A stretch of 64,000 nt of DNA from Acaryochloris sp. CCMEE 5410 (lineage in GTDB: Bacteria > Cyanobacteriota > Cyanobacteriia > Thermosynechococcales > Thermosynechococcaceae). The notes under the pieces are model-generated. The model saw only the letters and a program-made list of their open reading frames with translations. It searched no databases and was not told the DNA's origin. The position numbers were made by a program, and so were the translations under genes. How positions within the stretch are numbered: the stretch's first letter is position 1; the number at the start of each line of letters is the position of its first letter. Positions 48,114-62,966 of this stretch are shown here, in pieces. The stretch covers positions 1-64,000 of the forward strand of contig NZ_AFEJ02000005.1 in NCBI RefSeq assembly GCF_000238775.2, given 5' to 3'.

Positions 48114-48312
48114 GCTACCTCCTATTTATGAGTGTCGCATAAATGTGACAGTAATGGACATCTTCAACTTTTAGGTCGCGAATGTATCCCTGATGCTACT
48201 ACCTCTCAAAATTCCTCGATAGCCTGGTTAAGCGCTAGAGGCAGACCCCAGAAATTCCTAGGATAAGTCCAAGGATAGGGTTGTAGTTTCTGATTACTTT
48301 TCTTAGTACTTT

Positions 48313-48606
48313 CTAAGACGTTGGGTTTCCCCCTCGGCCTATTTCTCCATCTCTAGAAAGAAGATAGTCAACGGCACGTTTAAGTTGTTTTGCTTCTTCA
48401 CGAGTCTCTAGCATGGCTTCAGATAACACACCCATTTGAGCTTGTAATCCCAGTTGCCCTTCCATGAGACGTTCAAAGGCAGATTGTTGCTTTTCCTGCA
48501 CTTGGAGAACACTTTCAATGGAACGTTGCTGATTGTCTTGAATATTAACCAAGCGTTCAAGCATTTGTTCAATGCGATCCAGTCGATCCGGTTGGCTAGC
48601 AGTCAT
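48313..48606 (-). CDS. Coiled-coil protein coupled to the XRE regulator
   Basis: 97 residues, a continuous heptad pattern (RIEQMLERLVNIQDNQQRSI; LLQAQ-type repeats to LKRAVDYLLSRDGEIG). Its ATG overlaps the stop of the upstream XRE gene by four bases. Similar small coiled-coil proteins often accompany XRE regulators in cyanobacterial accessory DNA. Function unknown. Confidence 0.55.
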   Translation of the reverse strand: MTASQPDRLDRIEQMLERLVNIQDNQQRSIESVLQVQEKQQSAFERLMEGQLGLQAQMGVLSEAMLETREEAKQLKRAVDYLLSRDGEIGRGGNPTS

Positions 48607-48839
48607 ATTTGAACTCCCTCAACGTCATCAGGTTCCCAGTCAATTTCAACCAAGTCAGCAATTGTTTTCAGTCCAAAGTATTTGCAAAGTTGGGTGACGG
48701 TATGGTTATCAATCCGGTCAAAATGTCCGCGATAGATTTTTCCAACCGTAGTCGGACTAAGCCCGGTTCGAGCAGAGAGGGTTTTTTGGTCAATCCCCAC
48801 CTGTTCCATTAATTCTGGCAATTTAGTAATCACTTTCAT
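48603..48839 (-). CDS. XRE-family repressor
   Basis: 78 residues. Cro/C1-type helix-turn-helix: LMEQVGIDQKTLSARTGLSP and TTVGKIYRGHFDRIDNHTVT, then QLCKYFGLKTIADLVEIDWE. The gene starts next to a palindrome-rich promoter region at 48868-48912 and faces a leader transcript going right, as in a phage-type or TA-type switch. Likely represses itself and the divergent promoter. Confidence 0.8.
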   Translation of the reverse strand: MKVITKLPELMEQVGIDQKTLSARTGLSPTTVGKIYRGHFDRIDNHTVTQLCKYFGLKTIADLVEIDWEPDDVEGVQI

Positions 48840-48867
48840 AACTCCATCGTACTATCCAACGATAACA

Positions 48868-48912
48868 CGATATCAGTTTCATGTTGACATGATATTAGTA
48901 TCGTGGTATTAT
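48868..48912 (+). promoter_or_regulatory. Strong divergent promoter with repressor-type palindrome
   Basis: CACGATA (48868-48874) and TATCGTG (48899-48905) form an inverted repeat around CATGttgaCATG (48880-48891). Inside it, TTGACA (48884-48889), a 17-base spacer and TATTAT (48907-48912) make a near-consensus promoter reading right. The palindrome overlapping the promoter suits binding by the adjacent XRE protein. Confidence 0.7.
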
Positions 48913-48917
48913 CAGAG

Positions 48918-49128
48918 CATACCGAAGGAAAAGGAAAGCGCCTTAAGAAAGGCTTCCACCACAACCAAAGACCGGGCGACAGCGACCTTCCCCCAACTGC
49001 TAGCAACCACCTGAAGCTGGTGCCGCGACCGTAAGGCGATGCCTTCTAAGGCTAAAAACTAGAGACGATTCAAAAAACTTTCATTGACGAGAGCCGCTGC
49101 ACTTCCGGCAAGAACTTCAGCGGCTCTC
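48918..49128 (+). ncRNA. Structured leader or small RNA, ending in a strong hairpin
   Basis: Downstream of the strong promoter lies ~210 bases with no reading frame but several possible stems (GCCTT/AAGGC pairs near 48952-49050, CACC/GGTG near 49008-49025). It ends in an 11-bp perfect stem, GAGAGCCGCTG (49089-49099) with CAGCGGCTCTC (49118-49128). The U tract after it is weak. It could be a regulatory RNA or an attenuator for the small gene at 49157. Confidence 0.4.
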
Positions 49129-49156
49129 TTGCACACCTACAAAGAGGTATTAGCCA

Positions 49157-49339
49157 ATGCTAAACGATCCGATGACCCAGGCTTGGCAACCCTGGACTGA
49201 TGCTGAGATGTCTGAGCGAAATAAAGCTGTTTCCGGTAACTGGATTCTAGCCTTTTTCCAAGATGGCTATTCTCACGACACTATTGATTCTGGGGATTCT
49301 AAGGATTGCGTACCAGATACCCATCCAGAGGATAACTAG
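49157..49339 (+). CDS. Small hypothetical protein behind a structured leader
   Basis: 60 residues, acidic and soluble (MTQAWQPWTDAEMSERNKAV, GDSKDCVPDTHPEDN), with an AAAGAGGT site before ATG 49157. No family recognised. Its position directly after the leader hairpin suggests control by attenuation. Confidence 0.45.
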   Translation: MLNDPMTQAWQPWTDAEMSERNKAVSGNWILAFFQDGYSHDTIDSGDSKDCVPDTHPEDN

Positions 49340-49431
49340 CTCACTCCGTTCTTATTCCGCGCCCTGGTCCTGACTGGGGCGCAGCGGGAGCTGATTAACG
49401 ATAAATCTGTCACTTAGGCTAGGATCGATTC

Positions 49432-49692
49432 ATGACATCAACGACTAACGATCACAACCCATTTCTAAAAACCGCCACACAGATTGCAACGATAACGCTG
49501 GCAGTCCTTGCTGTACTAACCACCTTTGGCGCAGTCCTTGTATTCGTTATCCACTCAGTCATCGCCACGGATGTTGCCCCAAGGTTAGATCGACTTGAGG
49601 TTGCAGTGAATGATTTGAATGTCCGGGTTGAGCGCCTAGAGACAGGTCAACAAGACATCATCAAGCTGTTGACCTCTAAAAAGAATCTCTAA
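49432..49692 (+). CDS. Small membrane protein with coiled-coil tail
   Basis: 86 residues. One membrane segment (ATITLAVLAVLTTFGAVLVF) followed by a heptad coiled coil (RLDRLEVAVNDLNVRVERLE). A terminator follows 25 bases after the stop. The layout resembles small phage or plasmid membrane-anchored coiled-coil proteins. Function unknown. Confidence 0.55.
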   Translation: MTSTTNDHNPFLKTATQIATITLAVLAVLTTFGAVLVFVIHSVIATDVAPRLDRLEVAVNDLNVRVERLETGQQDIIKLLTSKKNL

Positions 49693-49717
49693 CCCCATCC
49701 TTTTCCCCAATACTTCC

Positions 49718-49749
49718 AAAATCCCCTGGTAAGTGAACCAGGGGATTTT
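49718..49749 (+). terminator. Rho-independent terminator
   Basis: AAAATCCCCTGG and CCAGGGGATTTT form a 12-bp stem with an 8-base loop. It closes the 49432-49692 gene. Confidence 0.75.
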
Positions 49750-49813
49750 GCTATACCCTCTCTCCGTCCCTGCAGTTTTTCAAAGGAACCCCCTGGAAAG
49801 GAGGTATTTTATT

Positions 49814-50161
49814 ATGCTGCTAAATATTCAACAAATTGCGATCTCTCAAATCACCCAGGACGATGTACACAGACTCTTAGAAGCCAAACCATCTGATGGG
49901 AAAGCTCTCGTCTACTCCTCTCACTGCCTAGCTTGTGGGTTGATTGTCCTCATATCTGAAGAAGATGAGTATCGGCAGTCGGATTTCGCGGATTACTCCT
50001 CAGCTATGCAACGGGTAATAGAGTGGGCACACCAGCGAGGGGCCTCATATCTAATGCTTTCTGAAGATGGCGAAGAGGTGGACCTTGTTGATACTTCATA
50101 CAATGCTTCAACCCACTATGATGAGGTCATGGAGGCACAACATGAAACGCATCAAGGTTGA
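49814..50161 (+). CDS. Hypothetical protein, DUF5983-like
   Basis: 115 residues from ATG 49814, with a strong AAAGGAGGT site. ITQDDVHRLLEAKPSDGKAL and MQRVIEWAHQRGASYLMLSE suggest a compact alpha/beta fold, similar in feel to DUF5983 proteins of plasmids, but this is weak. It overlaps the next gene by 20 bases, starting a run of overlapping genes. Confidence 0.5.
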   Translation: MLLNIQQIAISQITQDDVHRLLEAKPSDGKALVYSSHCLACGLIVLISEEDEYRQSDFADYSSAMQRVIEWAHQRGASYLMLSEDGEEVDLVDTSYNASTHYDEVMEAQHETHQG

Positions 50162-50660
50162 GAGATGGTATTTGGATCAACAGCTCCGCATTAGTCACCC
50201 TTCAGGAGTAAATAAGACAGTCATCCGCTATACCCCATCACTTGAGTATGATGATTTACCGTGGTGCAATCGCCGAAAAAGCGAACTAAAGGTCATTGGA
50301 ACTGAAGATATTGCCAAGCTAGCACTTTATGCAGGTGCATACTCCCGCTTGTGGATTGGCCCTTTGGATGGAATTGTTGCCCCAATGGACATTCAACCAG
50401 AAGGATGGACCTATGCCAGCGGAGATCCTTTAGAGCCTTCATGGTGGTGGCAATGGCATCCCTCTGATACGGCGAAGGAATTAATCATGGGGGATCTGTC
50501 TGAGCGTAACCCATTAGAGGTGAAGACTTTTAAGCATATGGCACCTATTCAATTGCAGAGAAAAACTGGACCATTGACGGATGTCCAGGCAATAGATGTG
50601 ATTCGATTACCTGGACTTATAAAAAATGGCGTGCCATTTATCTTTGAGACCGAATTATGA
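50142..50660 (+). CDS. Hypothetical protein
   Basis: 172 residues from ATG 50142. Soluble, Trp-rich (DPLEPSWWWQWHPSDTAKEL), basic at the N-terminus (MKRIKVERWYLDQQLRI). Overlaps both neighbours (20 and 4 bases), so it belongs to one operon with 49814-51028. No domain recognised. Confidence 0.5.
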   Translation: MKRIKVERWYLDQQLRISHPSGVNKTVIRYTPSLEYDDLPWCNRRKSELKVIGTEDIAKLALYAGAYSRLWIGPLDGIVAPMDIQPEGWTYASGDPLEPSWWWQWHPSDTAKELIMGDLSERNPLEVKTFKHMAPIQLQRKTGPLTDVQAIDVIRLPGLIKNGVPFIFETEL

Positions 50661-51028
50661 AGAAGCTCACTAACCTACAAAAGGCTTTAGCTAGCAAATC
50701 TGGAAAGGTATGCGTGACAATTATCCGAGATGATGTCCTAAAAGTCGTTTTTGGAGCAACTCCTGAGTTAGATATTGTTGATGAGCTACAGACGCTTACT
50801 AGAAACGAATGTTTTGAGTTAATTCCCGGATCATCTATTCAATACTGGAACTTTAAAGTATCGAAACCACAAAGCGCCTTTGAAGTGGGCAAGGCTATTG
50901 TTCAGGACTTAAAAGAGAAAGGCATTGAAGTTGAAGTTGAAATTGGAACGGGTCGTTTCCAAAACCTAACTTTTTCAACTGTAGATACAGATACTTTTCT
51001 CCAGTCCTCAATTGATGACAAAAGGTAG
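50657..51028 (+). CDS. Hypothetical protein
   Basis: 123 residues, starting in an ATGA overlap with the previous gene. Alpha/beta composition (KVCVTIIRDDVLKVVFGATP; GKAIVQDLKEKGIEVEVEIG). No recognised family. About 110 bases separate it from the next gene. Confidence 0.5.
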   Translation: MKKLTNLQKALASKSGKVCVTIIRDDVLKVVFGATPELDIVDELQTLTRNECFELIPGSSIQYWNFKVSKPQSAFEVGKAIVQDLKEKGIEVEVEIGTGRFQNLTFSTVDTDTFLQSSIDDKR

Positions 51029-51137
51029 AAGGAAGTACCTAATTATCCCCACTCAATTCACACCTATTAATTGATTTCACACCTATTAATTCCCCTGGCT
51101 GATTCGCTGGGGGTTTCGCATATCTGGAGAAAATCCT

Positions 51138-51719
51138 ATGACCGTATCAATCCCACCACTCACCCTCAAAAGCCCAGTCAACCTTGTCAGCCACAGTATC
51201 AACCCCGATGATCGCCCCATCCTCGAACAGATCTCAAGAATCGCCCCGAATCTTTCCCAGGACGAACTTGCGGCCCTTAGTATCGCTTCTTTGTATGGAG
51301 GCTACGAACCTAGATCTGTGGATGTGGATTTAGCTGTTTGTACTTCTAGTACTTTCGAGCAGTGCATCAACCTAATCCAAGACCTCTCGCAATCTGGCAA
51401 GGTCGCCTTAGTGCGAAGTATCACTGAACTGCTAGCAGCATCACACATCACCCCCGATGTTGCTTTGCCAGTCCTGCCCCTAGTCCCACCAACTCATCCT
51501 GAGAATGCTTGGTGTGTGCTGTCGATAGAGCAAGCGATTGCCTTTGCCAAGGCTGGACGGATGGACCCATCTATCCTGGTCTGGGGTTTCTCTCAGCAGT
51601 CGCTCCAAGTGATTCCCCCTGATCTTCTGGCTGCTGCCAATGAGAGCTTGCCAGGACTCCTAGAATCCCTCACTCTACCCCTTCATCAAGAGGCCACTAA
51701 TGATGCAAACCCAAGATAG
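51138..51719 (+). CDS. Hypothetical protein
   Basis: 193 residues. LEQISRIAPNLSQDELAALS and two similar helical halves with proline-rich joints (VALPVLPLVPPTHPENAWCV). No signal peptide. Overlaps the next gene by 20 bases. Unknown family; likely a plasmid operon component. Confidence 0.5.
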   Translation: MTVSIPPLTLKSPVNLVSHSINPDDRPILEQISRIAPNLSQDELAALSIASLYGGYEPRSVDVDLAVCTSSTFEQCINLIQDLSQSGKVALVRSITELLAASHITPDVALPVLPLVPPTHPENAWCVLSIEQAIAFAKAGRMDPSILVWGFSQQSLQVIPPDLLAAANESLPGLLESLTLPLHQEATNDANPR

Positions 51720-52218
51720 GCCCCAAGCCCCACCCCAACAGCAAGCCCATGTCCGACCCCTCGGATTTGGTGAAAGTCCCAGTGGCCTTGCGATATTCTG
51801 CAATCGGGCCAATACCAATACTTGGTATACCCTTAATCAAGCTTCCCAACCGGAAGAACTCCCTTACCCTGCCCTCACGGGTTATCTCCAAAGTATTGAA
51901 TTTATCAAGACCGAGTACAAAGGAAAACCCAAGACCAAACTCAGGTTTAAGATGATGGCTCATCGTCCCTGTACTCTGGAAGCGGGTTCTGAGTCCACGT
52001 TTACGAAGGGATTCTTGAGTGCGATCGCAAGTTTGACACCGGAACATCTCCGCTACCCCATCACCATTGAGGCCGTCCCCGCTGATGAAGAGAAAGTGCT
52101 GTTCTGCGCTGTGTGGCTGATGGGTCAGAAGGTCAGAACGCAATGGGACGAGCAAACGAACTGGCGGGAGGTCGCTAGACGAGCCAAGGATAATGTGGCG
52201 CAGCTTCAGCGTGAGTGA
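51700..52218 (+). CDS. Hypothetical protein, possibly OB-fold
   Basis: 172 residues. After a Q/P-rich start (PQAPPQQQAHVRP) the body (LAIFCNRANTNTWYTLN; TGYLQSIEFIKTEYKGKPKT; EKVLFCAVWLMGQKVRT) alternates strands like a small beta barrel of the kind found in single-strand DNA-binding proteins. This is only a pattern impression. It is coupled to both neighbours by overlaps. Confidence 0.45.
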   Translation: MMQTQDRPQAPPQQQAHVRPLGFGESPSGLAIFCNRANTNTWYTLNQASQPEELPYPALTGYLQSIEFIKTEYKGKPKTKLRFKMMAHRPCTLEAGSESTFTKGFLSAIASLTPEHLRYPITIEAVPADEEKVLFCAVWLMGQKVRTQWDEQTNWREVARRAKDNVAQLQRE

Positions 52219-52517
52219 TGAATCCGATCATCGACTGGCAATCCCTGAAGAACCTGACGGAGTATTGCCGGGAGGATATCAAGGGCTTCTGTGAGGATGA
52301 GGGGCTTCCGGTTTATCCCGGTCGCCTTCATCCCTTCCAAGCTCTGTTTCTCCGCAATTTGCTGTTGTGCAACTGGTCGGTGCGTGAGGGGTATTTCGCT
52401 TATTACTGGCAGGCTCAGCAAGCCTTCGAATTGTTCTGGGCAGAGTTACCGGATGATGTCACCGATTGCCAGTTGGCGGCATCTTGGATGGTCTGGTGTG
52501 AGGGGAGCTTGAAATAA
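52218..52517 (+). CDS. Hypothetical protein
   Basis: 99 residues; the ATG overlaps the preceding TGA. Helical, aromatic-rich (RNLLLCNWSVREGYFAYYWQ). Last gene of the 51138-52517 run, followed by a small hairpin (ACAGCTTC/GAAGCTGT, 52521-52544). No family recognised. Confidence 0.5.
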   Translation: MNPIIDWQSLKNLTEYCREDIKGFCEDEGLPVYPGRLHPFQALFLRNLLLCNWSVREGYFAYYWQAQQAFELFWAELPDDVTDCQLAASWMVWCEGSLK

Positions 52518-52966
52518 AAAACAGCTTCGGTAAGGAGAAGCTGTCGAGATCCACTTTTTTGGTGAAGCGATGGAATTATCTATTCTCACCCTTCTATTAG
52601 TGAGGATGCCCAACTTGAGGCGAAGAATGACAAAGCAGTATGGAAAAGGGCGACCTGGAGTATATTAGACCGCCCTCAAATGATTGCTGTTCATACAATC
52701 TGAATGAAATTTAACACAGTCTCAGATTCTATGTTTTGGGTTTTAACAAATTAGTCTAACCGAATGAGTAAAAGGGCAATCCATAGTCAGGAAAATTGCC
52801 CCGACTAAAGCATAAGATGCTTCTGTTTCATACCTACAAATCTATCACGTTCACCAAGATAATCCTTACTATCTATACATTTCTGCATTTTCATGACTGC
52901 TGTATTTATGAAGAATTAGGGCAATTAAAATAGCCTTGATTCCCGCTTTATTTTGGGAAAATCATT
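52518..52966. other. 450-bp gap with a hairpin and no gene
   Basis: An 8-bp stem (52521-52528 with 52537-52544) just after the previous stop may end that operon. The rest is AT-rich with no convincing frame or repeat, and presumably holds the promoter for the modification module. Confidence 0.5.
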
Positions 52967-53350
52967 ATGACAATCACCGTCGTTAATCTTCGCCACAATC
53001 GCAATGTCAAGGGCTACCGCTGCGACCGTGCCAGCGTCCTTGGTAATCCCTTTCATATGTTCCATGAATCTGAGCGAATGGCAGTGGTCGCAGCGTTCCG
53101 TGAATACCTCCATGAAGTCGCCAACCTGGGAGCCAATCCCGTTGATGTGGTTTCAGGGCTAGCTGAAAAGTACAACGTCCAGGTCTCAGGCATGTGGAAG
53201 CGCCCCAATCGTACTCAAGTGATGGCAGAGCTAGCCAAGCTGGAGGCCATGCCAGAAGTGAAGTTGCTCTGCTGGTGCGCTCCCTTGGCCTGCCACGGCG
53301 ATGTCATTAAGTCCTACCTGGCGTGGAAGCACAAGGAAGCTGGCAGGTAG
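52967..53350 (+). CDS. DUF4326 family protein
   Basis: 127 residues. VVNLRHNRNVKGYRCDRASV, LGNPFHM and the C-terminal LLCWCAPLACHGDVIKSYL are the DUF4326 signature, with conserved Cys and His that may form a metal or active site. The family is frequent in phages and plasmids and is suspected to act in nucleotide or DNA-base metabolism, without biochemical proof. First gene of the modification-type module. Confidence 0.85.
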   Translation: MTITVVNLRHNRNVKGYRCDRASVLGNPFHMFHESERMAVVAAFREYLHEVANLGANPVDVVSGLAEKYNVQVSGMWKRPNRTQVMAELAKLEAMPEVKLLCWCAPLACHGDVIKSYLAWKHKEAGR

Positions 53351-53442
53351 GTCTGTAGTGAACCAATCGAACAAAGAGGCGACCCACGGTTAGAGAGAAT
53401 CGCCTCAGCTAAAACCAATAAACATTCTAGGAGAAACGTAAC

Positions 53443-53727
53443 ATGTTTACCCGTAATGTGCGGCGGCTCTATCAGCCGTCCGTTAAACAATGCTGCGATT
53501 GTCACGAGTATAAAGTGGCAATTGCCTACCAAATCATTCCCCTGCGTCGTACAGGTGGCAACCACATCTGGTGGCTATGCCGGGACTGTGGGGCATCACG
53601 AGGAATCTTTCCCACCCCAGAGTTGAGCAGACGGCTAATGCGACTGGAAGAAAAGGAACGCTCTGAGCAACGAGCAAAAGTCGTAACTCTTGCCCCTCGA
53701 CCTGCCGCTCTCTCATCAGGGGCGTAA
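53443..53727 (+). CDS. Small zinc-finger-like protein
   Basis: 94 residues, AGGAG before ATG 53443. Two CxxC pairs, QCCDCHEYK and LCRDCGASR, 30 residues apart, should bind one zinc ion. A charged helical tail follows (RRLMRLEEKERSEQRAKVV). Probably nucleic-acid-binding or a partner protein of the module. No named family. Confidence 0.6.
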   Translation: MFTRNVRRLYQPSVKQCCDCHEYKVAIAYQIIPLRRTGGNHIWWLCRDCGASRGIFPTPELSRRLMRLEEKERSEQRAKVVTLAPRPAALSSGA

Positions 53728-53810
53728 GACGTGACCTTCCACGCCGATGTCGGCCTAAGACTCACTTTTGAACATCTGAAAAATCGCATCACTCAAATAG
53801 GAGGTAAATC

Positions 53811-54113
53811 ATGCCATGCCTTGAACCATTGACAGCCTCAATCGAGATTTTGGAGTTGCGGGAAGTGGACTGTGATTGGATGGGTGACCTGCTCGGTTAC
53901 TTTGCTATGGGTCATTATGAGCCAGCCACTTTTGCTCAGGCGGTCAACGCTGAATATGATCCAGACATCCCGGCTGAAGCCCATCAGATCTGCCATGAGT
54001 TTTGGGTTGAAGTTTCCTTAGAGCCAGATGAACTGGACTGTAACTGCACTTGCCTTAAGACCTGTAAGGCGGATGTGGATGGTGCATTTGCCGTTACCTA
54101 TATCGAACTTTAA
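53811..54113 (+). CDS. Small acidic hypothetical protein
   Basis: 100 residues, acidic, with a Cys cluster near the C-terminus (LDCNCTCLKTCKADVDG) that could bind a metal. AGGAGG precedes the ATG. No family recognised. Confidence 0.5.
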   Translation: MPCLEPLTASIEILELREVDCDWMGDLLGYFAMGHYEPATFAQAVNAEYDPDIPAEAHQICHEFWVEVSLEPDELDCNCTCLKTCKADVDGAFAVTYIEL

Positions 54114-54161
54114 CGGTAACCACAACCCCAATTAGCCAATTGAATATTGGAGGAAAATCCC

Positions 54162-54377
54162 ATGAGCAATTTAGTGTACTCGCCTCAGCATCATCTGGTG
54201 TACTTCCTCGGGACGCTCAGAAGACAAAACGGCACCCGTCTCAAGGTGTTCTCAACAGTCTCCAGACAGCACGTTCTGATGATTGCCAAGGACAAATCCG
54301 GGGAGTGGAGTAAGAACTTCACCACAGTCAAAATCACAGATTTACGCCCCGCTGTTCGACTCAAGTTGTGTTGTTAG
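54162..54377 (+). CDS. Small hypothetical protein
   Basis: 71 residues from ATG 54162, preceded by GGAGGAAAATCCC. Small beta-rich protein (HHLVYFLGTLRRQNGTRLKV, VKITDLRPAVRLKLCC). It ends 10 bases before the PAPS-reductase-like gene, so it is in the same operon. Unknown function. Confidence 0.5.
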   Translation: MSNLVYSPQHHLVYFLGTLRRQNGTRLKVFSTVSRQHVLMIAKDKSGEWSKNFTTVKITDLRPAVRLKLCC

Positions 54378-54387
54378 GGGCAGGATC

Positions 54388-55437
54388 ATGAGCGCCACCC
54401 AAATGGTCTTGCCCCTCCAGGTGCCCGGTGTTTCGACGCTCCCCGATCTGTCCACCTATGACCGTATCTTGGTTGCGTTCTCTGGTGGTAAGGATTCGAT
54501 CTGTTGTCTGCTTCGACTACTGGAATTAGGCGTACCCAAGGGCAGGATTGAATTGCATCATCACCTTGTCGATGGTCTAAGCAATACTCCAGTCAATTCC
54601 CAAATCTCCACTTTGTTCGATTGGCCTATCACGGAAAGCTACAGCCGAAAGTTTGCCCAAGCCTTCGACCTTCCGATTTACATGAGCTGGCTGGAGGGTG
54701 GTCTAGAACGAGAAATGTGCCGCGACAACCAACCCAAGGCACCCACTCACTTCCAGACGCCTGATGGTGAGCAGGTCTCTGGAGGGCAAGGCAAGCCTGG
54801 AACTCGTTGCAAGTTTCCTGCCAAAGTTGCGGACCTTAAGACCCGTTGGTGTTCTTCGTATCTGAAGATTGATGTTCTCAGCACCGCCATTGCCAACCAA
54901 TCTCGGTTCAATCATTCCCGAACTCTGGTGGTTACAGGGGAGCGGGCACAAGAGAGTGCAGCTAGGGCCAAGTATCAGAGTTTTGAGCCTCACCGGACTG
55001 ATCGGCGGGACAGCCCCAAACTCAGACGGCATATTGACCACTGGCGTCCGGTCCATGCTTATTCTTCAGAGCAAGTTTGGGAAACAATCCAGCGTTGGGG
55101 AGTGCAAGCCCATCCTGCCTATTACCTGGGCTGGGGTCGGCTGAGCTGCCAATTCTGTATCTTCGGCTCACCTAACCAGTGGGCTTCCAATGCGGCCATC
55201 TCGCCAGAGCGTTCAGAGCGGCTGCACCAGTACGAGCAAGCGTTTCAGCACACCCTCGACAACAAGCTTTCTATACCAGAGATGGCGGCTAGGGGCAAAG
55301 TCTATGAGGCCATCCACCAGAACCCTGACCAGCTCCGGTTAGCCCTCAGCCAAGACTATACACTGCCCATCCTCGTTGACCCAGATACCTGGACCCTGCC
55401 TGCGGGGGCATTTGGGGAGGATGCAGGACCGACTTAA
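54388..55437 (+). CDS. PAPS-reductase-like PP-loop protein (DndC-type architecture)
   Basis: 349 residues. The ATP-pyrophosphatase PP-loop is seen as RILVAFSGGKDSICCLLRLL (near residue 35). The middle has KTRWCSSYLKIDVL and TGERAQESAARAKYQSF, as in sulfonucleotide reductases and the DNA phosphorothioation protein DndC. A CQFCIFG pair near 255 could hold a cluster or zinc. Such proteins adenylate or reduce, often moving sulfur onto a nucleotide or RNA base. In this context a role in nucleic-acid modification is inferred; metabolic sulfate reduction is less likely. Confidence 0.8.
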   Translation: MSATQMVLPLQVPGVSTLPDLSTYDRILVAFSGGKDSICCLLRLLELGVPKGRIELHHHLVDGLSNTPVNSQISTLFDWPITESYSRKFAQAFDLPIYMSWLEGGLEREMCRDNQPKAPTHFQTPDGEQVSGGQGKPGTRCKFPAKVADLKTRWCSSYLKIDVLSTAIANQSRFNHSRTLVVTGERAQESAARAKYQSFEPHRTDRRDSPKLRRHIDHWRPVHAYSSEQVWETIQRWGVQAHPAYYLGWGRLSCQFCIFGSPNQWASNAAISPERSERLHQYEQAFQHTLDNKLSIPEMAARGKVYEAIHQNPDQLRLALSQDYTLPILVDPDTWTLPAGAFGEDAGPT

Positions 55438-55448
55438 GGAGATTAGAC

Positions 55449-55610
55449 ATGAAATCAGAACACAGCTTTTTGCATCGCATTTTCCAGGCCATCAAGCGAG
55501 GTCTTAGCCCCAAAGCCAAGCAACAATGCCGTGCCTGTGGCGAGTGGCACAGACCCTCAAGGCTCGATAGTAAAGGATTCTGCCGGGAATGTAATCGTTT
55601 GGGAGCTTAG
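55449..55610 (+). CDS. 53-residue zinc-ribbon-like protein
   Basis: Short frame beginning MKSEHSFLHRIFQAIKRGLS with two CxxC pairs, QCRACGEWH and FCRECNRLG, a minimal zinc ribbon. AGGAGATTAG precedes the ATG. It ends two bases before the methyltransferase start, so the two are coupled. Possibly a DNA-binding partner. Confidence 0.6.
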   Translation: MKSEHSFLHRIFQAIKRGLSPKAKQQCRACGEWHRPSRLDSKGFCRECNRLGA

Positions 55611-55612
55611 CC

Positions 55613-56965
55613 ATGAAGAAGAAATCTTACATCACCGTCACTGATCAGTTTTGCGGTTGCGGTGGTTCGAGCAGTGGTGCTTCCCAAGCAGGATGCGAGA
55701 TCGTCATGGCGATTAACCATTGGGATAAAGCGGTGGAAACCCACAATACCAACTTCCCCGATACTGCCCATGATTGCACAGACATCAGTGCTTGCGACCC
55801 TCGCCGCTATCCAAGTACTGACATTTTGATTACCAGCCCTGAGTGTACAAATCATAGTTTAGCTAAAGGGAAAAAGCGCAAGAACTTGGGCCAAATGGAC
55901 TTGTTCAACCCCCAAACCATTGACCCGGAGGCAGAGAGGTCAAGGGCCACGCTCTGGGATGTCGTCAGATTTTCGGAGGTTCATCAGTACAACTTTGTCG
56001 TTGTCGAGAATGTGGTCGAGGTGCGCCACTGGATCTTGTTCGATAGCTGGCTCAATGCCATGCATACCTTGGGGTATGACCATGAGGCGATTTTCTTCAA
56101 CAGCATGTTTGCTGAAGCACCTCAAAGTAGAGACCGGGTGTACATCGTCTTCTGGAGGAGAAACAACCCCAAACCTAACCTCAGCTTTACCCCGCTGGCC
56201 CACTGCTCCCAATGCGGTGAAGTCGAGGCTATTCAGTCCTGGAAAAACCCATTTAAGAAGTGGGGGCGCTACGGCAAGCGCAATCAATATGTATACCGCT
56301 GTCCCAGTTGTGCTCAGGTGGTGGAGCCATACTTTACCCCAGCCTATACCGTGATTGATTGGAGTTATCCCAGTACAAAGGTGGGGGATCGTAAAAGGCC
56401 CCTGAAGTCAGCGACCCTGGAAAGAATTCGTAAAGGACTGCAGAAGTTCTGCTCTCCAGTGTTGGTGGAAACAGCTTACGGCAAAGACACGAGTAATCGG
56501 GTTCGGAGTGTGGATGGAATTCTACCCACCCAGACGGCCCGCCAAACAATGGCCTTGGCAACACCGTTTATTGTGCGGAACTACACCGGGGCGCAGGCTG
56601 CTAGCATCCGTGACCCACTGCCCACAATCACCACAGTTGACCATAATTCGCTGGTGCAACCGTTTCTGACCAGTTATTACAGTGGCTCAGCTCAGGTCTG
56701 TGGGATGGATGCTGCCATTCCCACTATTACTGCTGCGGATCGTCATGCTCTGGTGCAACCGGATCATTCCATCTCTGTTGAAGATTGCTATTTCCGTATG
56801 CTTCAGCCCCATGAAATCCAGGCAGCAATGGCTTTCGCTCAAGATTACAAAGTTTTGGGAAATAAACGAGAGAGGGTCAAGCAGCTTGGTAATGCTGTCA
56901 CCCCACCAGTAATGCAGATGATTCTGACTCGTTGCCTTGATTCCCTGTCATCCCCACATTTTTGA
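55613..56965 (+). CDS. C5 cytosine DNA methyltransferase
   Basis: 450 residues. Motif I reads DQFCGCGGSSSGA, motif IV ITSPECTNHSLAKG (the catalytic Cys within P-E-C, not the usual P-P-C), motif VI VVVENVVEVRHW, motif VIII SRDRVYIVFWRR and motif X LGNAVTPPVMQMI. Between VIII and the target region there is a zinc-ribbon insert (CSQCGEVEAI ... YRCPSCAQVV). It methylates carbon 5 of cytosine in an unknown sequence, or a related dC position. No restriction endonuclease gene is adjacent, so it is a solitary or modification-module enzyme. Confidence 0.9.
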   Translation: MKKKSYITVTDQFCGCGGSSSGASQAGCEIVMAINHWDKAVETHNTNFPDTAHDCTDISACDPRRYPSTDILITSPECTNHSLAKGKKRKNLGQMDLFNPQTIDPEAERSRATLWDVVRFSEVHQYNFVVVENVVEVRHWILFDSWLNAMHTLGYDHEAIFFNSMFAEAPQSRDRVYIVFWRRNNPKPNLSFTPLAHCSQCGEVEAIQSWKNPFKKWGRYGKRNQYVYRCPSCAQVVEPYFTPAYTVIDWSYPSTKVGDRKRPLKSATLERIRKGLQKFCSPVLVETAYGKDTSNRVRSVDGILPTQTARQTMALATPFIVRNYTGAQAASIRDPLPTITTVDHNSLVQPFLTSYYSGSAQVCGMDAAIPTITAADRHALVQPDHSISVEDCYFRMLQPHEIQAAMAFAQDYKVLGNKRERVKQLGNAVTPPVMQMILTRCLDSLSSPHF

Positions 56966-57018
56966 AACCACTAATCATTTCAGAATCCAGCGAGATTCTG
57001 AAAACTCAGGAGGCAGTT

Positions 57019-57120
57019 ATGAATAGCTACATCTTTCTCTGGTGGCTGCTCTGGCAGTCCCTCTACTTCGGCATGTTTCTTTATTTCTTCCTTAGTGATG
57101 CCTTAAGGAGTCACCCATGA
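57019..57120 (+). CDS. 33-residue membrane peptide
   Basis: MNSYIFLWWLLWQSLYFGMF then LYFFLSDALRSHP: one strongly hydrophobic, aromatic segment. AGGAGG lies 7 bases before the ATG, and its stop overlaps the next gene's start (ATGA). The ribosome site and coupling support real translation despite the small size. Function unknown. Confidence 0.5.
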   Translation: MNSYIFLWWLLWQSLYFGMFLYFFLSDALRSHP

Positions 57121-58244
57121 TTCACGTACTTAATTTGGGGCTTGGCGTTGACTCAACGGCAATTTTGCTTTCCTGGATTTACGAACCCAAAAGCCGACCA
57201 TTTAATAGCTTTGACGAACTGCTGCTGATAACCGCTCAGACAGGCAACGAACATCAATCCACCAAGAGTCTGGTCGAGACTCACATCTTGCCATTACTGC
57301 GACAGCGCCAGATCCGCTTTGTCCAGGTCGCCAAGGCGGGCCATTCTAAACGAGATGGCTACACCGTCTTGAGCGACACTCGAAACCCCCAGATTTGCCA
57401 TATCGAAGGCGATTACACTCTCGGCCATTCCCTGAGAATTGCAGGCACAAGCCAACCTGTGAGTGGTGCCCATACTTGCGCGATGAAGTTCAAAGGTGTC
57501 GTTATCGATAGCTGGATAACCGATCATCTCTCTGGTGAGGCCATCGGTCCTTACCTGGGCTATTGCAAAGGAGAAGAGAAGCGCTCAACTAAATGTGCTG
57601 AGTATCCATGCATGGGTTCAGAATATCGATTCCCTTTGCAGGAATGGGGCTGGGACAGGGAGACTTGCATCAACTATATCCGCGAGAAAACTGGGGCTGA
57701 TTGGCTCAAGTCAGCCTGTGTGTTCTGTCCCTTCTGCAAGCCAGAACAGGCAGGCCAGCGCTGGGAAGCTGAACCAGAAGCGGGCCTGTATGCCCTGGTC
57801 TTGGAAGCTGCGGCGCTTGCTCTCAACCCTCGGATGAAGCTGTTTGCCAGTCGCTCTGCCTGGGAGGTTGCCCCCCAGTCCGTCAGAGAGTTGGCCGTGA
57901 ATCACCTGGACTCAATTGATTGGGCTGTTTACCGAGTCGAGCGCATTTATCAAGGCAAGCAGATCAGTAGGCGAGTCATGAGAGTGTCTAAGCCGATGCC
58001 TCGCCGTGCAGCCGATGAGCAGGTCAGTGTGATTGCCAAGCAACACGGCTGTGCTTGCGATACCTCAGACCCGACCTATATCAGAGCTTACGAGTATCAC
58101 AGAAAGCCCAACGAGTCCCTGACCTGTGAAGGGTTCTGGGTTGCGGCCCCTGGCTTTATCCAGAACAAGGTGCATCGACCGAATTACTTTGAGCAGACCT
58201 GGCAAGAGGCAACCGGGAAGGTCAAGCAGCTCTCGCTAGTTTGA
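57117..58244 (+). CDS. Second PAPS-reductase-like PP-loop protein, divergent
   Basis: 375 residues. The N-terminus HVLNLGLGVDSTAILLSWIY is a PP-loop variant (LGLGVDS in place of SGGKDS). Further on: GAHTCAMKFKGVVIDSWITD, CAEYPCMGSEYRFPL and SACVFCPFCKPEQAG, the last a CxxC pair likely for a cluster or zinc. It shares the fold but little sequence with the 54388-55437 protein. Phage proteins of this type are annotated as PAPS reductases without proof. Probably acts with the same module. Confidence 0.78.
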   Translation: MIHVLNLGLGVDSTAILLSWIYEPKSRPFNSFDELLLITAQTGNEHQSTKSLVETHILPLLRQRQIRFVQVAKAGHSKRDGYTVLSDTRNPQICHIEGDYTLGHSLRIAGTSQPVSGAHTCAMKFKGVVIDSWITDHLSGEAIGPYLGYCKGEEKRSTKCAEYPCMGSEYRFPLQEWGWDRETCINYIREKTGADWLKSACVFCPFCKPEQAGQRWEAEPEAGLYALVLEAAALALNPRMKLFASRSAWEVAPQSVRELAVNHLDSIDWAVYRVERIYQGKQISRRVMRVSKPMPRRAADEQVSVIAKQHGCACDTSDPTYIRAYEYHRKPNESLTCEGFWVAAPGFIQNKVHRPNYFEQTWQEATGKVKQLSLV

Positions 58245-58327
58245 ATTACTTTGACCAGACAGAGAGCGGTCGTCTGTGAGTGCTGCCACTCTCCCCATGA
58301 CAACCTTATTCATCATTGGAATCACCC

Positions 58328-58960
58328 ATGAAAACCATGTATGCACCGACCGACAAGCGTGGGCAGCAGAAGCTTGCTATCACGCTCAACCTTGTTCCGA
58401 ACACTCCACCCCTTCCCGTGGGTGCCTTCTCCCTGATTGTGGCTGATCCGCCGTGGTTATATCACCTGAGAGAAAGTGAAAAAAAGCACCGAGGGCGATG
58501 TCCTTATCCAGCCATGACCGACGAGGAAATTTTGGCGATGCCCGTGAGTTCGATTGCCGCTCCAGATTCATATTTGTTGTTGTGGACGACAAACAACCAT
58601 CTGCCAGTGGCGTTCAGAGTTATGGAGGCATGGGGATTTGAGTACAAAGCCATACATACGTGGGTGAAGACGACATTAGACAGGTCCAAGATTAGATTCG
58701 GTGTAGGACATTACGGTCGAAATGCAACTGAACACGTTCTTATAGGCCGCAAAGGAAAGGCTAAAACCTTTATGGCACTGGGATTGACTAATATTCCCAC
58801 CGCATTCCAGGCTCCCCTTGGTCAGCACTCTCAAAAGCCAGAAGAGTTCTACCAGATGGCGGATCGGCTAGGTGATGCTCTCGGCGGGCAGCGGATTGAG
58901 TTGTTTGCCCGGTGTCCTCGTCCTGGCTGGGAGAGTTGGGGTGCGGAGGTGGAGGCATGA
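58328..58960 (+). CDS. MT-A70 family adenine methyltransferase
   Basis: 210 residues from ATG 58328. The catalytic DPPW is in SLIVADPPWLYHLRESEKKH, and LLLWTTNNHLPVAFRVMEAW, GHYGRNATEHVLIGRKG and QAPLGQHSQKPEEFYQM follow the MT-A70 order. These enzymes make N6-methyladenine in DNA or RNA; small members are common in phages and plasmids. Overlaps the ASCH gene by four bases. Confidence 0.9.
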   Translation: MKTMYAPTDKRGQQKLAITLNLVPNTPPLPVGAFSLIVADPPWLYHLRESEKKHRGRCPYPAMTDEEILAMPVSSIAAPDSYLLLWTTNNHLPVAFRVMEAWGFEYKAIHTWVKTTLDRSKIRFGVGHYGRNATEHVLIGRKGKAKTFMALGLTNIPTAFQAPLGQHSQKPEEFYQMADRLGDALGGQRIELFARCPRPGWESWGAEVEA

Positions 58961-59406
58961 AAATCATCACGCTCTGGCAACCTTGGGCAACCTTCATTGC
59001 TCTGAACTTCAAGCAATTTGAGACTCGCTCTTGGGGCACTGGCTACCGGGGCAAGCTGGCAATCCATGCGGCCAAACGGCATATCGACCCGGATGGGAAG
59101 TATGCAGCAAGCCAGGTGTATGAACTGACCAATGGCAAATTGGCTCTCAAGCGACGGGATTATCCACTGGGCTGCATCGTGGCGATTGCGGATCTAGTGG
59201 ATTGTCTCCAAATGGACTCAAGTCTGATCAGCAGACAAACCGAACTGGAGTTGGCCGTGGGCAATTGGCAACCGGGACGCTTTGCTTGGCAGCTAGAGAA
59301 CATCGTTGCTCTGAGTGTACCCATTCCCTATCGAGGGTCTCAGGGACTCCGGGATGTTCGGCCCGATGTACTGAAAATTTTGATGGAGTTAACCAATGGA
59401 GAATAG
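58957..59406 (+). CDS. ASCH-domain protein
   Basis: 149 residues, starting in an ATGA overlap. LWQPWATFIALNFKQFETRS, YRGKLAIHAAKR and LGCIVAIADLVDC are typical of the ASCH (PUA-like) fold; some bind RNA, some act as RNases or on modified bases (YqfB type). The conserved Trp/Lys positions are present. Its location between two modification-type genes supports a base-recognition role. Confidence 0.85.
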   Translation: MKIITLWQPWATFIALNFKQFETRSWGTGYRGKLAIHAAKRHIDPDGKYAASQVYELTNGKLALKRRDYPLGCIVAIADLVDCLQMDSSLISRQTELELAVGNWQPGRFAWQLENIVALSVPIPYRGSQGLRDVRPDVLKILMELTNGE

Positions 59407-60166
59407 CAAAATTGAGTGGACCCACCACACGTTCAATTCTTGGATCGGCTGCGCCCACAACAGTCCCGGCTGTGCGAATTGCTATGCCGAAACCCTAATG
59501 GACACACGATACCATCGCGTAAAGTGGGGCAAAAATGGAACCAGATCACGCACCTCTGAATCTTACTGGAAGCAACCTCATAAATGGAATCGCAAGGCTG
59601 CTGAGCGAGGGGTTCTTGAAACCGTTTTCTGTGCGTCCCTGGCCGATGTGTTCGAGGACCGGGATGATCTGATTGATTGGCGGTTGGACCTGTTTGATGG
59701 TGTTATCGACAAAACCCCAAACCTGATCTGGTTGCTACTGACCAAGCGGGTGGATGTCGCGGCTAAGTTTCTCCAGTTCAGGCGAGTACCGCCCAATGTC
59801 TGGCTGGGCCATAGCATCTGCACCCAGCGTGAATGCGATGTCGTCATTCCCAAGCTGGCGAAGTTGCGGAAGTATATTGGCGGTGCCTTTCTGAGTTGCG
59901 AACCCCTGCTCGAACCCTTGGACCTGGGTGCCCTTCCCGCGAATTGGATTATTGCCGGGGGTGAGTCTGGTCCTGGGGCACGGCCTTGTGATGTGGACTG
60001 GATTCGCTCCATCCGGGACCAGTGTAAATCAGCAGAAATTCCCGTGTTTATCAAGCAGATCGGTAGTAAACCCGTGGGGGTTCCCAAGCTCCGTTCAGCG
60101 AAGGGTGGGGATACCGAGGAATGGCCCAAGGATCTTCGGGTGAGAGAGTTTCCTGAGTTCGGGTGA
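59396..60166 (+). CDS. DUF5131 / phage Gp37-Gp68 family protein
   Basis: 256 residues. KIEWTHHTFNSWIGCAHNSP and GCANCYAETL carry the three-Cys cluster of the family, which is thought to be a radical-SAM relative. FCASLADVFEDRD, WLLLTKR, WLGHSICTQRE and WIIAGGESGPGARPCDVDW follow in the usual order. Function unproven; frequent in phage and plasmid modification islands. It overlaps the ASCH gene by 11 bases. Confidence 0.88.
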   Translation: MENSKIEWTHHTFNSWIGCAHNSPGCANCYAETLMDTRYHRVKWGKNGTRSRTSESYWKQPHKWNRKAAERGVLETVFCASLADVFEDRDDLIDWRLDLFDGVIDKTPNLIWLLLTKRVDVAAKFLQFRRVPPNVWLGHSICTQRECDVVIPKLAKLRKYIGGAFLSCEPLLEPLDLGALPANWIIAGGESGPGARPCDVDWIRSIRDQCKSAEIPVFIKQIGSKPVGVPKLRSAKGGDTEEWPKDLRVREFPEFG

Positions 60167-60181
60167 GGGAGGTGATTGTGG

Positions 60182-60529
60182 ATGAAGAGTGACGAAATCG
60201 AAGGGTGGCGAGTAGGTCTGAAGTCTGAGACTCAAGTCGGCATTGAATCTCAGACTTTGGAAATCTCTGGGCCGGGAAATTTGAAAATCGAAATCCAACG
60301 CTTCAAGTCTGTAGAGGTTACCATTGAAGGCTTTGTGAATCTGGAAATGGCCCCAACCAAGTTTTTTGAGTTGTCCTGTAAGTGTTACGACTCGGTGAAT
60401 AAATGCAAGGTCAGCCTCGATTATTATTTCACCGGAGAACCAGAAGCGTATCTGATCGTGGGATGCGCTCATTGGGTGATACCCATACCCTTTGCACAGC
60501 AACTCGTGCATGTTTTCTTGCTGGGCTAG
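60182..60529 (+). CDS. Hypothetical protein
   Basis: 115 residues from ATG 60182, after GGGAGGTG. Beta-rich (ISGPGNLKIEIQRFKSVEVT, CKVSLDYYFTGEPEAYLIVG). It closes the co-directional run that began at 52967. No family recognised. Confidence 0.5.
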   Translation: MKSDEIEGWRVGLKSETQVGIESQTLEISGPGNLKIEIQRFKSVEVTIEGFVNLEMAPTKFFELSCKCYDSVNKCKVSLDYYFTGEPEAYLIVGCAHWVIPIPFAQQLVHVFLLG

Positions 60530-61142
60530 GTATTGACCAATGCTCTGTTATACATTCAACACAATTGACAAAACATGCCCATTTTGTCAGCACAGGAGAC
60601 GAAAAAATCCTGTTCTCAATCTCGTGTTCTATCTCAGCTATCATCAAAGTACGCGCGTCCAACCTTTCAACACAGCCAATTGAGGGAAGCACACAAATCC
60701 TAAACCCCTAAGCTTTGTAACACGTTCGCCACTAGCATCCACTGCCTCTTCGTCCCCATTGCCTACTTAATTTTTAACGAATTGGATGGATTCAGGTCTA
60801 TATCTAGAATAAAGAAAGATATTCGATTGTAATCCGCGCTAACACTGATATTTTCTACTAAAAATCTCTTAAATTTCAGTGATTCTTCGGTTTAATTTGT
60901 ATTACATCGGTAGCTACAGTAGATGTATTGAGCTGTCATACCCCCCACGCCAGCTCAGTTTAAGTCCCCGAAATGGCAACTTGCACCGAAAGGGTAAGAC
61001 GCAGATTAGCAGACCTAAAGTCCAAGCATTACGGGGTATGGATGCTGCTAGTGTCGAAGGGACTTTCTTTATTTCTCAACAATGCCCTCTACCACTGTGT
61101 AGAGGGCATTGTTGTTGTGGTAAATTTTTCGTGAGAGCTGCA
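60530..61142. other. 610-bp gap without a clear gene, ending in a terminator
   Basis: No frame with a recognisable product. A short frame near 60974-61125 (MATCTERVRRRLADLKSKHY...) is uncertain. AT-rich around 60770-60900. Confidence 0.45.
61081..61110. terminator. Strong hairpin downstream of the nuclease gene
   Basis: AATGCCCTCTAC and GTAGAGGGCATT form a 12-bp perfect stem with a 6-base loop. It lies 33 bases beyond the 3' end of the nuclease gene at 61143 and ahead of it on the plus strand, so it can serve convergent transcripts. Confidence 0.65.
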
Positions 61143-61931
61143 TCAAATCCCCAACACTAATTGAACCTGCCGCGCTTCCTTCGTCCCCTCCGGTAATGGC
61201 TCTGGCTTCTTGGACTTCGCGGGACAGTACTTCTGATATCCACAGTGGTTGCAGTGCCCACCAACTTCCGGTTTCCACTCATCATCTGCTCTGAGTCTTA
61301 CTGCTATATCCCCGATCAACTCCCGGACCTGCTGGTGATGGTCAGGGGTCACATCCAACGAAACTTTCTGCCCCTGCCGTAGATAAATCAGACTCAGGGT
61401 TTCAAGAGCTTCTGGGTAGATCTGCTCCAGAATCAAAAAGTACAATCCCAGCTGTAGATCTATTCCATCAGATGGGCCAATCGTCTTGCTGGTCTTATAA
61501 TCAATCAGCTCCAGACCCTTATCGGTATAGTCTAAGCGGTCATAACGGCCTGTGATGGAAAACTCGATATTGTTCACCTGGAAGCTGGCCTTGATCTTCC
61601 CCTCGACGCCAAGCGGTTTACGGATCTGGGGTAGTGGGGCAACGTATTTCTCGTAATAGAGCCGCAAGGCCATCCACCCTTCATGAATCTGAGCAGGTTT
61701 CAGCTCTCCAGTATGTGCCTGCCAGCAAACGGCGAACCAGTCGAGGGAAGGGAGGGGGTAATCGTAATTCCAGTCTTTGTAGATATCTGCGAGAGTTTTG
61801 TGAAGGGCAATCCCAAAGGCAGGCGAACCGAAGGCAGAGGGTGAAGAGAGTCCCCGCTCATATCTGAAGTTGTAGGCTTTGGGGCATTGCTGGTAGGTGA
61901 TGAGTTTAGTGGCTGAGAGGGGATAAGCCAT
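61143..61931 (-). CDS. Cas4/RecB-like PD-(D/E)XK nuclease
   Basis: 262 residues. GIALHKTLADIY (motif with His), VEGKIKASFQVNNIEFSITG, RYDRLDYTDKGLELIDYKTSK (D and DxK active site) and QLGLYFLILEQIY match PDDEXK_1/Cas4/AddB nucleases. A Cys near residue 16 (YQQCPKAYNF) and a C-terminal CNHCGYQKYC triplet form the four-Cys Fe-S site. It is probably an exonuclease on single-stranded ends. No CRISPR array or cas gene is in the window; a solitary repair or plasmid/phage role is more likely. Confidence 0.83.
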   Translation of the reverse strand: MAYPLSATKLITYQQCPKAYNFRYERGLSSPSAFGSPAFGIALHKTLADIYKDWNYDYPLPSLDWFAVCWQAHTGELKPAQIHEGWMALRLYYEKYVAPLPQIRKPLGVEGKIKASFQVNNIEFSITGRYDRLDYTDKGLELIDYKTSKTIGPSDGIDLQLGLYFLILEQIYPEALETLSLIYLRQGQKVSLDVTPDHHQQVRELIGDIAVRLRADDEWKPEVGGHCNHCGYQKYCPAKSKKPEPLPEGTKEARQVQLVLGI

Positions 61932-62324
61932 CGATTTGCACTGGGGGTATATTTCAATCGTAGTTCAAGACGCTCTGACACCCTTTAGCGATGACTGATT
62001 AGTGGATGGTCTCATTAACTTCAATATTGTGATTTCTGATGAATTACCAAGTGCTTGAAAATAGGTGAATCTCAATGGATTCTGTTGATACTTCAGTTGA
62101 GAAATTTCTCAACTGAGACTATGCGAGATAACCCCGACACCTTCACGAGAGAATTGTTAGTATACGTAGAATATAGGTTTTAGCGGTCATAGCTCAATGT
62201 TCAGTTTGAACTTGAACATGGCTCTGAAGAAAAGCAATTATATCTCTATTGAGAATATATCTTAATTTAGATTTAACCTCAACGTTGAGATTTTTGAGTA
62301 AGGGCCAGCTCTCAGGACGCACCA
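61932..62324. other. 390-bp regulatory gap with palindromes
   Basis: No gene. It carries a 24-bp perfect palindrome (62093-62116) and a 12-bp palindrome (62278-62289), reported separately. It contains the promoters of the divergent nuclease and Crp-family genes. Confidence 0.6.
62093..62116. promoter_or_regulatory. 24-bp perfect palindrome with CTCAAC/GTTGAG half-sites
   Basis: TCAGTTGAGAAA followed by its exact reverse complement. The GTTGAG/CTCAAC half-site also forms CTCAACGTTGAG at 62278-62289, 36 bases before the Crp-family start. Sites of this kind suit a dimeric regulator, possibly the adjacent gene's product. Confidence 0.5.
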
Positions 62325-62966
62325 ATGCCACAAACACAGATTTCACCAGCACTCTCCTCTTTCCATTGGTCGCAGTTACTTGAAGAGGTTTATCAAGGAC
62401 GACAAACCTATGATTACAAGAGGGGTTTCAACATCGTTTTGCATTCCTACGATATTTGGATCGTGTGTCGAGGAATCGTTCAACTACATACATCGGATGG
62501 TGAGGGGAATGAAGCAATCTTGGGATTGGCTTGTCCAGAAATGCCCTTTGGTTTGCCCTTGACTCAAGTTTATCCCTATACAGCGACTGCGTTAACGGAT
62601 GTCGTACTCATGCGTATCAGTCAGCAAGAGTTGGAGCAGTCGCCTGTTCTGGCACAAGGCATTCAAGTTCAATTGAATCGACGACTCCAGCAAACTGAGG
62701 CTTTATTAGCTCTAAATCTTCATCGTCGTGTGAGCGAACGCTTTCAGGAATTACTGTTATTGCTGGCAAGGGAAATAGGGGAACAGGTCCCAAATGGCTG
62801 TCGGATTGGTGCTCGATTAACTCATCAACAAATTGCAGGTCTGATAGGGGCTACTCGTGTTACGGCTACTCGCATCCTTGGTGAACTGCGAAAGGAAGGA
62901 TGGCTATCGGTCGATAAAACTCGCCATATCATCCTCCACGAATCTTCTGTTGTGGATCTCCAGTAA
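62325..62966 (+). CDS. Crp/Fnr-family transcription regulator
   Basis: 213 residues. The N-terminal half is a cyclic-nucleotide-binding-like beta barrel (FNIVLHSYDIWIVCRGIVQL; EAILGLACPEMPFGLPL); the residues that bind cAMP phosphate are not obvious. The C-terminal winged helix has LTHQQIAGLIGATRVTATRI as recognition region. No Fnr Cys cluster. Likely a global-type regulator of the element. Palindromes upstream may be its own sites. Confidence 0.85.
   Translation: MPQTQISPALSSFHWSQLLEEVYQGRQTYDYKRGFNIVLHSYDIWIVCRGIVQLHTSDGEGNEAILGLACPEMPFGLPLTQVYPYTATALTDVVLMRISQQELEQSPVLAQGIQVQLNRRLQQTEALLALNLHRRVSERFQELLLLLAREIGEQVPNGCRIGARLTHQQIAGLIGATRVTATRILGELRKEGWLSVDKTRHIILHESSVVDLQ

Follow-up and report, generated by a model that had tools for sequence, protein, structure and literature searches.

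The question raised by this locus is what occupies the space between a strong promoter and the short gene behind it. In the 64,000-nucleotide stretch analysed here (the window; Acaryochloris sp. CCMEE 5410, contig NZ_AFEJ02000005.1), a promoter that diverges from an XRE-type regulator gene is followed by ~240 non-coding bases, an 11-bp hairpin among them, and then by a 60-codon gene. The contig is apparently a plasmid, with reading frames at 32493-33566 (+) and 33634-35895 (+) that are presumably RecA-like and RecD2-like. The first-pass annotation had likened the locus to an immunity switch, an antisense or attenuator RNA, or a copy-number control locus. The reading preferred here, to which we give about an even chance, is that of a cis-acting structured leader RNA that would head repressor-controlled, leading-region-like operons, mostly on plasmids. 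The structured leader is probably an undescribed control element, because searches of Rfam and of those portions of the open-licence PMC literature that were covered gave no match to it.

Table 1. Features of the window and of related loci (locus or replicon named where the feature lies outside the window).
Feature	Position	Strand	Basis
XRE gene (Cro/C1-type HTH), putative repressor, divergent	48603-48839	-	PF13443, E 6.6e-12
Interrupted palindrome, putative operator, centred on the -35 box	48866-48905	.	half-site matching and shuffles
Outer arms of palindrome, CACGATA and TATCGTG	48866-48872, 48899-48905
Sigma70-type promoter TTGACA-17-TATTAT	48884-48912	+	sequence; score 11/12
-35 box TTGACA	48884-48889	+
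-10 box TATTAT	48907-48912	+
5' module hairpin	48933-48957	+	alignment; hairpin in predicted fold
Hairpin 1, AGCG in loop	48974-48988	+	arms assigned by eye
Conserved core	49003-49063	+	covariance model R2 34.1 bits, E 9.3e-9; covariation
Hairpin 2	49008-49011/49019-49022	+	part of conserved core
Hairpin 3	49026-49030/49035-49038	+	part of conserved core
Hairpin 4	49041-49043/49050-49052	+	part of conserved core
AAAAACT motif	49054-49060	+	part of conserved core
Hairpin 5, 11-bp stem 49089-49099 with 49118-49128	49089-49128	+	sequence
Probable ribosome binding site AGAGGT	49143-49148	+	by eye
60-codon first gene, without family match	49157-49339	+	ORF; related ORFs behind six other copies
Co-directional run of reading frames	49157-60166	+	ORFs; Pfam, PADLOC and PHROGs searches
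Intrinsic-terminator-like hairpin between second and third genes of run	49718-49749	+	-20.4 kcal/mol
Second leader core	L004:1501-1730	-	sequence comparison
Second leader core	L009:306-520	-	sequence comparison
Second leader core	pMB03 98174-98316; pREC3 52705-52843		sequence comparison

The promoter had been described as strong and as facing away from the XRE gene, and it is indeed found in that arrangement, with the PF13443 gene on the opposite strand. It ranks first among the 9 sigma70-like sites in a scan of 48300-62400, a region without general enrichment of such sites (9 against a shuffle mean of 15.0), and its score is reached by 0/200 shuffles of its own 160-nt upstream stretch. The palindrome is an interrupted one of 20+20 with 15/20 half-site matches, and 1/2000 shuffles of 48840-48920 is equally good; the whole promoter had been placed inside it, but only the -35 box is central and the -10 box lies just outside. 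A divergent regulator with a palindrome looks like an immunity-type switch at the level of sequence, and to this extent the earlier comparison holds. The Rfam search returned over the promoter palindrome only two sub-threshold microRNA matches (26.1 of 80 and 15.3 of 70 bits), which are taken as chance.

The leader behind this promoter is composed of several parts. By alignment, the 5' module hairpin is common to the window and to loci L002 and L010, and is partly present in L004. Hairpin 1, which has no statistical count of its own, has a C.A third pair in the window, and its arms elsewhere read, by eye, AACC/GGUU, AACU/AGUU, CCG/CGG, CUCU/AGAG or GCAG/CUGC. The 11-bp hairpin reported ahead of the 60-codon gene lies where it had been placed, as does the gene itself, which has zero matches in Pfam, PADLOC and PHROGs. 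The leader had also been called stem-rich, and this is borne out for the linker and hairpin 5, the only stretch with unusual stability (z -3.7), but not for the leader as a whole (48915-49160, z -1.16, 25/200 shuffles equally stable) or for the window core (z +1.32).

Structure in the core is accepted because of covariation and not because of stability, in which it does not exceed shuffles (mean z over 32 copies -0.07 for one strand and -0.12 for the other). The order of its elements is hairpin 1, an CAAACUGC-type hairpin 2, a CGGG-type hairpin 3, GAU, a GCC-type hairpin 4 and AAAACU. Two alignments bear on helices 2-4. Alignment A7, fitted to model R2, holds 34 matches from 34 loci (L115 twice, L119 none; L005 and L007 aligned only partly, L002 not included) in 30 distinct rows; 94.2% of its cells are paired, both sides have changed in 58/311, and covariation is 0.455 against 0.108 shuffled (0/500 as high), with slid controls at or below 0.057, while the number of further pair types is unremarkable (138/500 shuffles). 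Alignment A6, made by MAFFT independently of any model fit, has 10 rows (9 distinct) and omits L021, L058, the second L013 copy and the window-type copies, the last because MAFFT had misaligned them in alignment A5; here 96.0% are paired and covariation is 0.298 against 0.108 shuffled (0/500), with two of the five measures, double-change pairs (129/500) and further pair types (362/500), unremarkable. Compensatory changes in relatives, the lack of which had been named beforehand as grounds for giving up the structure, are therefore found in both alignments. Helix 2, for instance, occurs as CUGC/GCAG, CACC/GGUG, CUUG/CAAG and CUCC/GGAG; the third pair of helix 3 is unpaired in 9 A7 rows, mostly of the window's own type, and helices 2-4 are incomplete in L065, L095, L097, L117 and L118 (= L101). 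The pair types, 3 G-U against 6 A-C in the 30 distinct rows, are no guide to the strand that folds, and on this count an argument from wobble pairs for the minus strand, drawn from the first 11-12 copies (alignment A1 has 11 and A2 has 12), was withdrawn.

That early wobble argument is the reason why R1 is a minus-strand model; model R2 (62 positions, 11 pairs) was built on the sense strand, and both were searched against both strands. R1 has matches in 14/388 cyanobacterial genomes (E<=0.1) and R2 in 15/388 (E<=1e-6; families f1, f13, f16, f24 and f32), of which 8 supplied rows of the R2 alignment and are found by construction, and the others (G000, G004, G013, G206, G282, G307 and G332) had no role in the model. 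At E<=0.05, R2 matches 107/388 genomes, most of them probably noise; remaining R2 matches with E >1e-4, except L101, were counted as noise, and inspection by eye dismissed five weak model hits as false (L066, L067, which lies in an integrase-like frame, L099, L100 and L102). An exact-pattern scan of genome contigs returned 34 stretches, with the core in 4 (L019, L021, L031 and L033) and chance, by eye, as the verdict on the other 30; in viral contigs it returned 2, chance by eye, and a second pattern gave 0.

Searches by blastn find two more long copies on other contigs of the window's own genome, with a shorter hairpin-module match, and copies on plasmids pREC1-3 of Acaryochloris marina MBIC10699 (second copies on pREC2 and on pREC1, the latter pair at 67.1 and 217.5 kb), on pMB01, pMB05 and also pMB03 of Acaryochloris sp. 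'Moss Beach', on pNSMS102 of Nostoc sp. MS1, on p057_G of Nostoc sp. C057 (a second copy there by model) and on plasmid1 of Leptolyngbya sp. NIES-3755. A plasmid location need not be true of every copy; the L097 copy is found 2.02 Mb into its contig. The core had no match among the Rfam 15 families, in the window or at 10 loci. The 32 copies counted below exclude L119 and the second L013 copy, and since they include near-identical relatives the counts are not of independent events.

Across these copies the surroundings of the core vary in a characteristic way. A promoter-like site of at least 9/12 lies within 160 nt upstream in 21/32 copies, the promoter call is matched by at most 5/200 shuffles in only 8/32, and 5/32 have no promoter-like site in those 160 nt at the thresholds used. 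Among the 27 copies with a site, the distance from the -10 end to the core is 40-58 nt in 14, 88-90 nt in 5, 104 nt in 2 and something else, between 4 and 128 nt, in the remaining 6; the spacer is 17 nt in 22/27, a length that the script prefers in ties. Since promoter-like sites lie upstream of it, the core would be transcribed. The promoter sequences and the regulators upstream vary between copies while the core is kept: the regulators are divergent XRE genes, RelE/ParE-type pairs and other small proteins, with the exception of L094, L097 and the second L115 copy, where an HTH gene lies on the same strand, and of some further copies in which divergent frames are absent or of no known family. 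On the 3' side, a hairpin of -9 kcal/mol or below stands 16-33 nt from the core in 22/32 copies, and hairpin 5 is missing, weak or misplaced in the other 10/32; the hairpin 5 stretch has z<-2 in 22/32, and hairpin 5 itself has similar sequences among Acaryochloris copies and different ones elsewhere. The start codon follows 76-108 nt 3' of the core in 19/32 copies, 15 found by script and L010, L012, L014 and L116 by annotation; the script's sixteenth pick, in the first L115 copy, was excluded because no gene is annotated there.

The genes that follow are diverse. When the first genes of 26 copies are compared by blastp (E<=1e-3), 12 groups emerge, including DUF932, the 60-codon family, a zinc-ribbon-like protein and families of no known kind, so that no single gene goes with the leader; L021, L058, L094, L095, L098 and the first L115 copy, where no clear first gene is seen, were omitted from the 32. 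In the window, the co-directional run would form one transcript and consists mostly of small genes without known family, its named matches being DUF5983, DUF4326, DUF5131, a C5 DNA methylase, an MT-A70 methylase and two PAPS-reductase-like genes, one of which is also DndC-like. Just 3' of the run, a match to the c-di-GMP-I riboswitch was recorded at 60965-61058 (+), 36 bits against a gathering threshold of 35; the setting is to our knowledge unusual.

A cis-acting leader RNA fits these observations best because the core stands just behind varying promoters and the spacing to the start codon is kept. Without its repressor, as when the plasmid has just reached a new cell, the putative promoter would fire, and the nascent leader would fold at the emerging 5' end of the transcript; the core and hairpin 5 might then decide on polymerase read-through or on expression of the first gene, in a manner like antitermination or attenuation. 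Action on read-through, translation or stability would each be compatible with a leader, and, given a leader RNA, we favour read-through control, putting it at roughly the same odds as the other mechanisms together. Antitermination is unproven because, over 43 kb of gene runs, terminator-like hairpins number 12 in the sense direction against 19 antisense, which is no enrichment. Behind the core of L114 and of one L115 copy stand terminator-like hairpins with a T run; most copies of hairpin 5 have no such run.

The explanation that survives best beside the leader RNA, though we consider it unlikely, is a single-stranded DNA element of the Frpo/ssi or EGeRS1 kind, in which the incoming strand of conjugation would fold and thereby set off early transcription, or priming, of genes in the leading region. 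It would suit the leading-region-like genes near the copies (DUF932, DUF3768, methylases and toxin-antitoxin pairs), the presence of more than one copy on several plasmids such as pREC1, and the inverted repeats that EGeRS1, in the portions of its description that were available, has ahead of establishment operons (PMC8708921). The relaxase gene is opposite in strand to the nearest core copy in 6/6 replicons having both (C4 and C5 of the window's own genome, pREC1, pREC2, pMB01 and pMB03, which are related and hence not independent), and lies 18-28 kb upstream of that copy in 5/6. On the window's own contig, however, the relaxase is 122 kb downstream of the core and the second pREC1 copy is 169 kb from its relaxase, oriT was not located, and the plasmids with copies are of mixed types, MOBF, MOBV and MOBP. 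For the copies on C6, pREC3 and pMB05 there is no relaxase among the matches listed, which are partly the best 30 of 187 records; pREC3 is typed MOBF, and its relaxase may lie beyond the 30 of 187. The start-codon spacing is constrained and the promoter hexamers lie outside the conserved unit, both of which speak against such an element. A Frpo-type promoter in particular was set aside: in the folded template strand of the 22 copies examined (of the 27 with a promoter site among the 32), the -35 and -10 boxes, whose joint pairing defines such a promoter, are both paired (mean >0.7) in 0/22, L063 coming nearest with 0.74 and 0.69, in a comparison for which a known Frpo was not run as control. 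Some 7 kb from mobF on pREC1, a diversity-generating retroelement (reverse transcriptase and Avd) with adjacent transposase genes was also observed (L082, 23321-26485).

A ligand-sensing riboswitch or protein-bound attenuator with hairpin 5 as its expression platform is distinctly unlikely. The near-fixed spacing of core and hairpin 5 would agree with it, as would the T runs behind the terminator-like hairpins of L114 and L115, but the 12 groups of first genes show no common metabolism, the core helices and hairpin 5 do not overlap in the window, and the core is without an Rfam match. Still less probable is a 5' stabiliser shielding the mRNA against decay, a reading that the strong hairpin 5 of the leader would suit but that gives no obvious role to the three hairpins of the conserved core and its AAACT and GAT motifs. 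An RNA from the opposite strand, either a TnpB omegaRNA remnant or an antisense copy-control RNA, is highly improbable: the L021 core does overlap, by eye, the 3' end of a decayed TnpB-like frame (L021:2940-3371, -), but no other copy with its flanks read lies at a tnpB end (the L115 tnpB is 2 kb downstream), the four PF07282 genes of the window's own genome are without the core by eye, and an IS200/IS605 right end was dropped on the same grounds. The antisense RNA suggested in the first-pass annotation loses further ground in that the leader has no opposite-strand promoter-like site at the scan thresholds, antisense copy-control RNAs being marked by a convergent antisense promoter next to rep. 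Copy-number control is likewise disfavoured, with several copies on some plasmids heading different operons and no replication gene in a Pfam scan of the 20 proteins around the window copy, although the Nostoc pNSMS102 copy lies ~3 kb from a plasmid replication gene, which counts against dismissing it.

The leader RNA may also not be the only one of its kind. In L004, from the window's own genome, and in L009, a different core is framed by a similar 5' module on one side and the same hairpin-5 module on the other; it occurs on pMB03 together with a reduced copy of the present core, also on pREC3, and partially on Nostoc C052 plasmids. The L004 gene behind this second core is 67% identical to the L014 gene behind the present one. 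These could be exchangeable leader cassettes with at least two core types, cyanobacteria-wide, that mark a plasmid establishment regulon and act at entry, possibly by a dual DNA and RNA fold, an extension that we regard as rather doubtful. Should the leader RNA itself be real, it would be a new structured element and a tag by which the early operons of cyanobacterial plasmids, of anti-defence type and here with genes mostly without family match, could be recognised. It would also suggest that cyanobacterial plasmids use leader-based control for operons of this type, which the portions of the literature covered describe only in other bacteria.

Among known systems, the put RNA of phage HK022 and EAR are RNAs that let polymerase pass downstream terminators. 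With these the leader shares a place beside the promoter of a long mobile-element operon, as it does with conAn, described in the part of the source drawn on as a bipartite antitermination system of Gram-positive conjugation operons (PMC8955417); it differs in that terminator-like hairpins are not enriched here and antitermination is only proposed. The cyanobacterial leader RNAs of Rfam named in the available text of PMC2864571 (glnA, Downstream-peptide and psaA) are structured too, and Downstream-peptide precedes short open reading frames of no known family, whereas the present core has no Rfam match and stands in plasmid-type contexts. The operon of the window resembles the plasmid leading-region islands of PMC11541004, so far as its consulted sections describe them, and the Frpo/ssi elements treated there are likewise found in several copies on some plasmids with leading-region-like genes downstream, but here the -35 and -10 boxes are not both in a template-strand duplex. 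By description, and within the sections of PMC8708921 that were consulted, the likeness extends to EGeRS1 and EGeRS2 of the pLS20/p576 plasmids of Bacillus, in which a conserved sequence is repeated before several establishment operons, with transient expression on plasmid entry, as the cyanobacterial leader is repeated before several operons. EGeRS1 is a sequence of 400-600 bp without a strong promoter, in contrast to the promoter and separate structured part of ~60-110 nt found here, whereas EGeRS2 promoters have the operators of a small repressor on their flanks (PMC8708921), an arrangement resembled by the putative operator palindrome and divergent XRE gene of the window.
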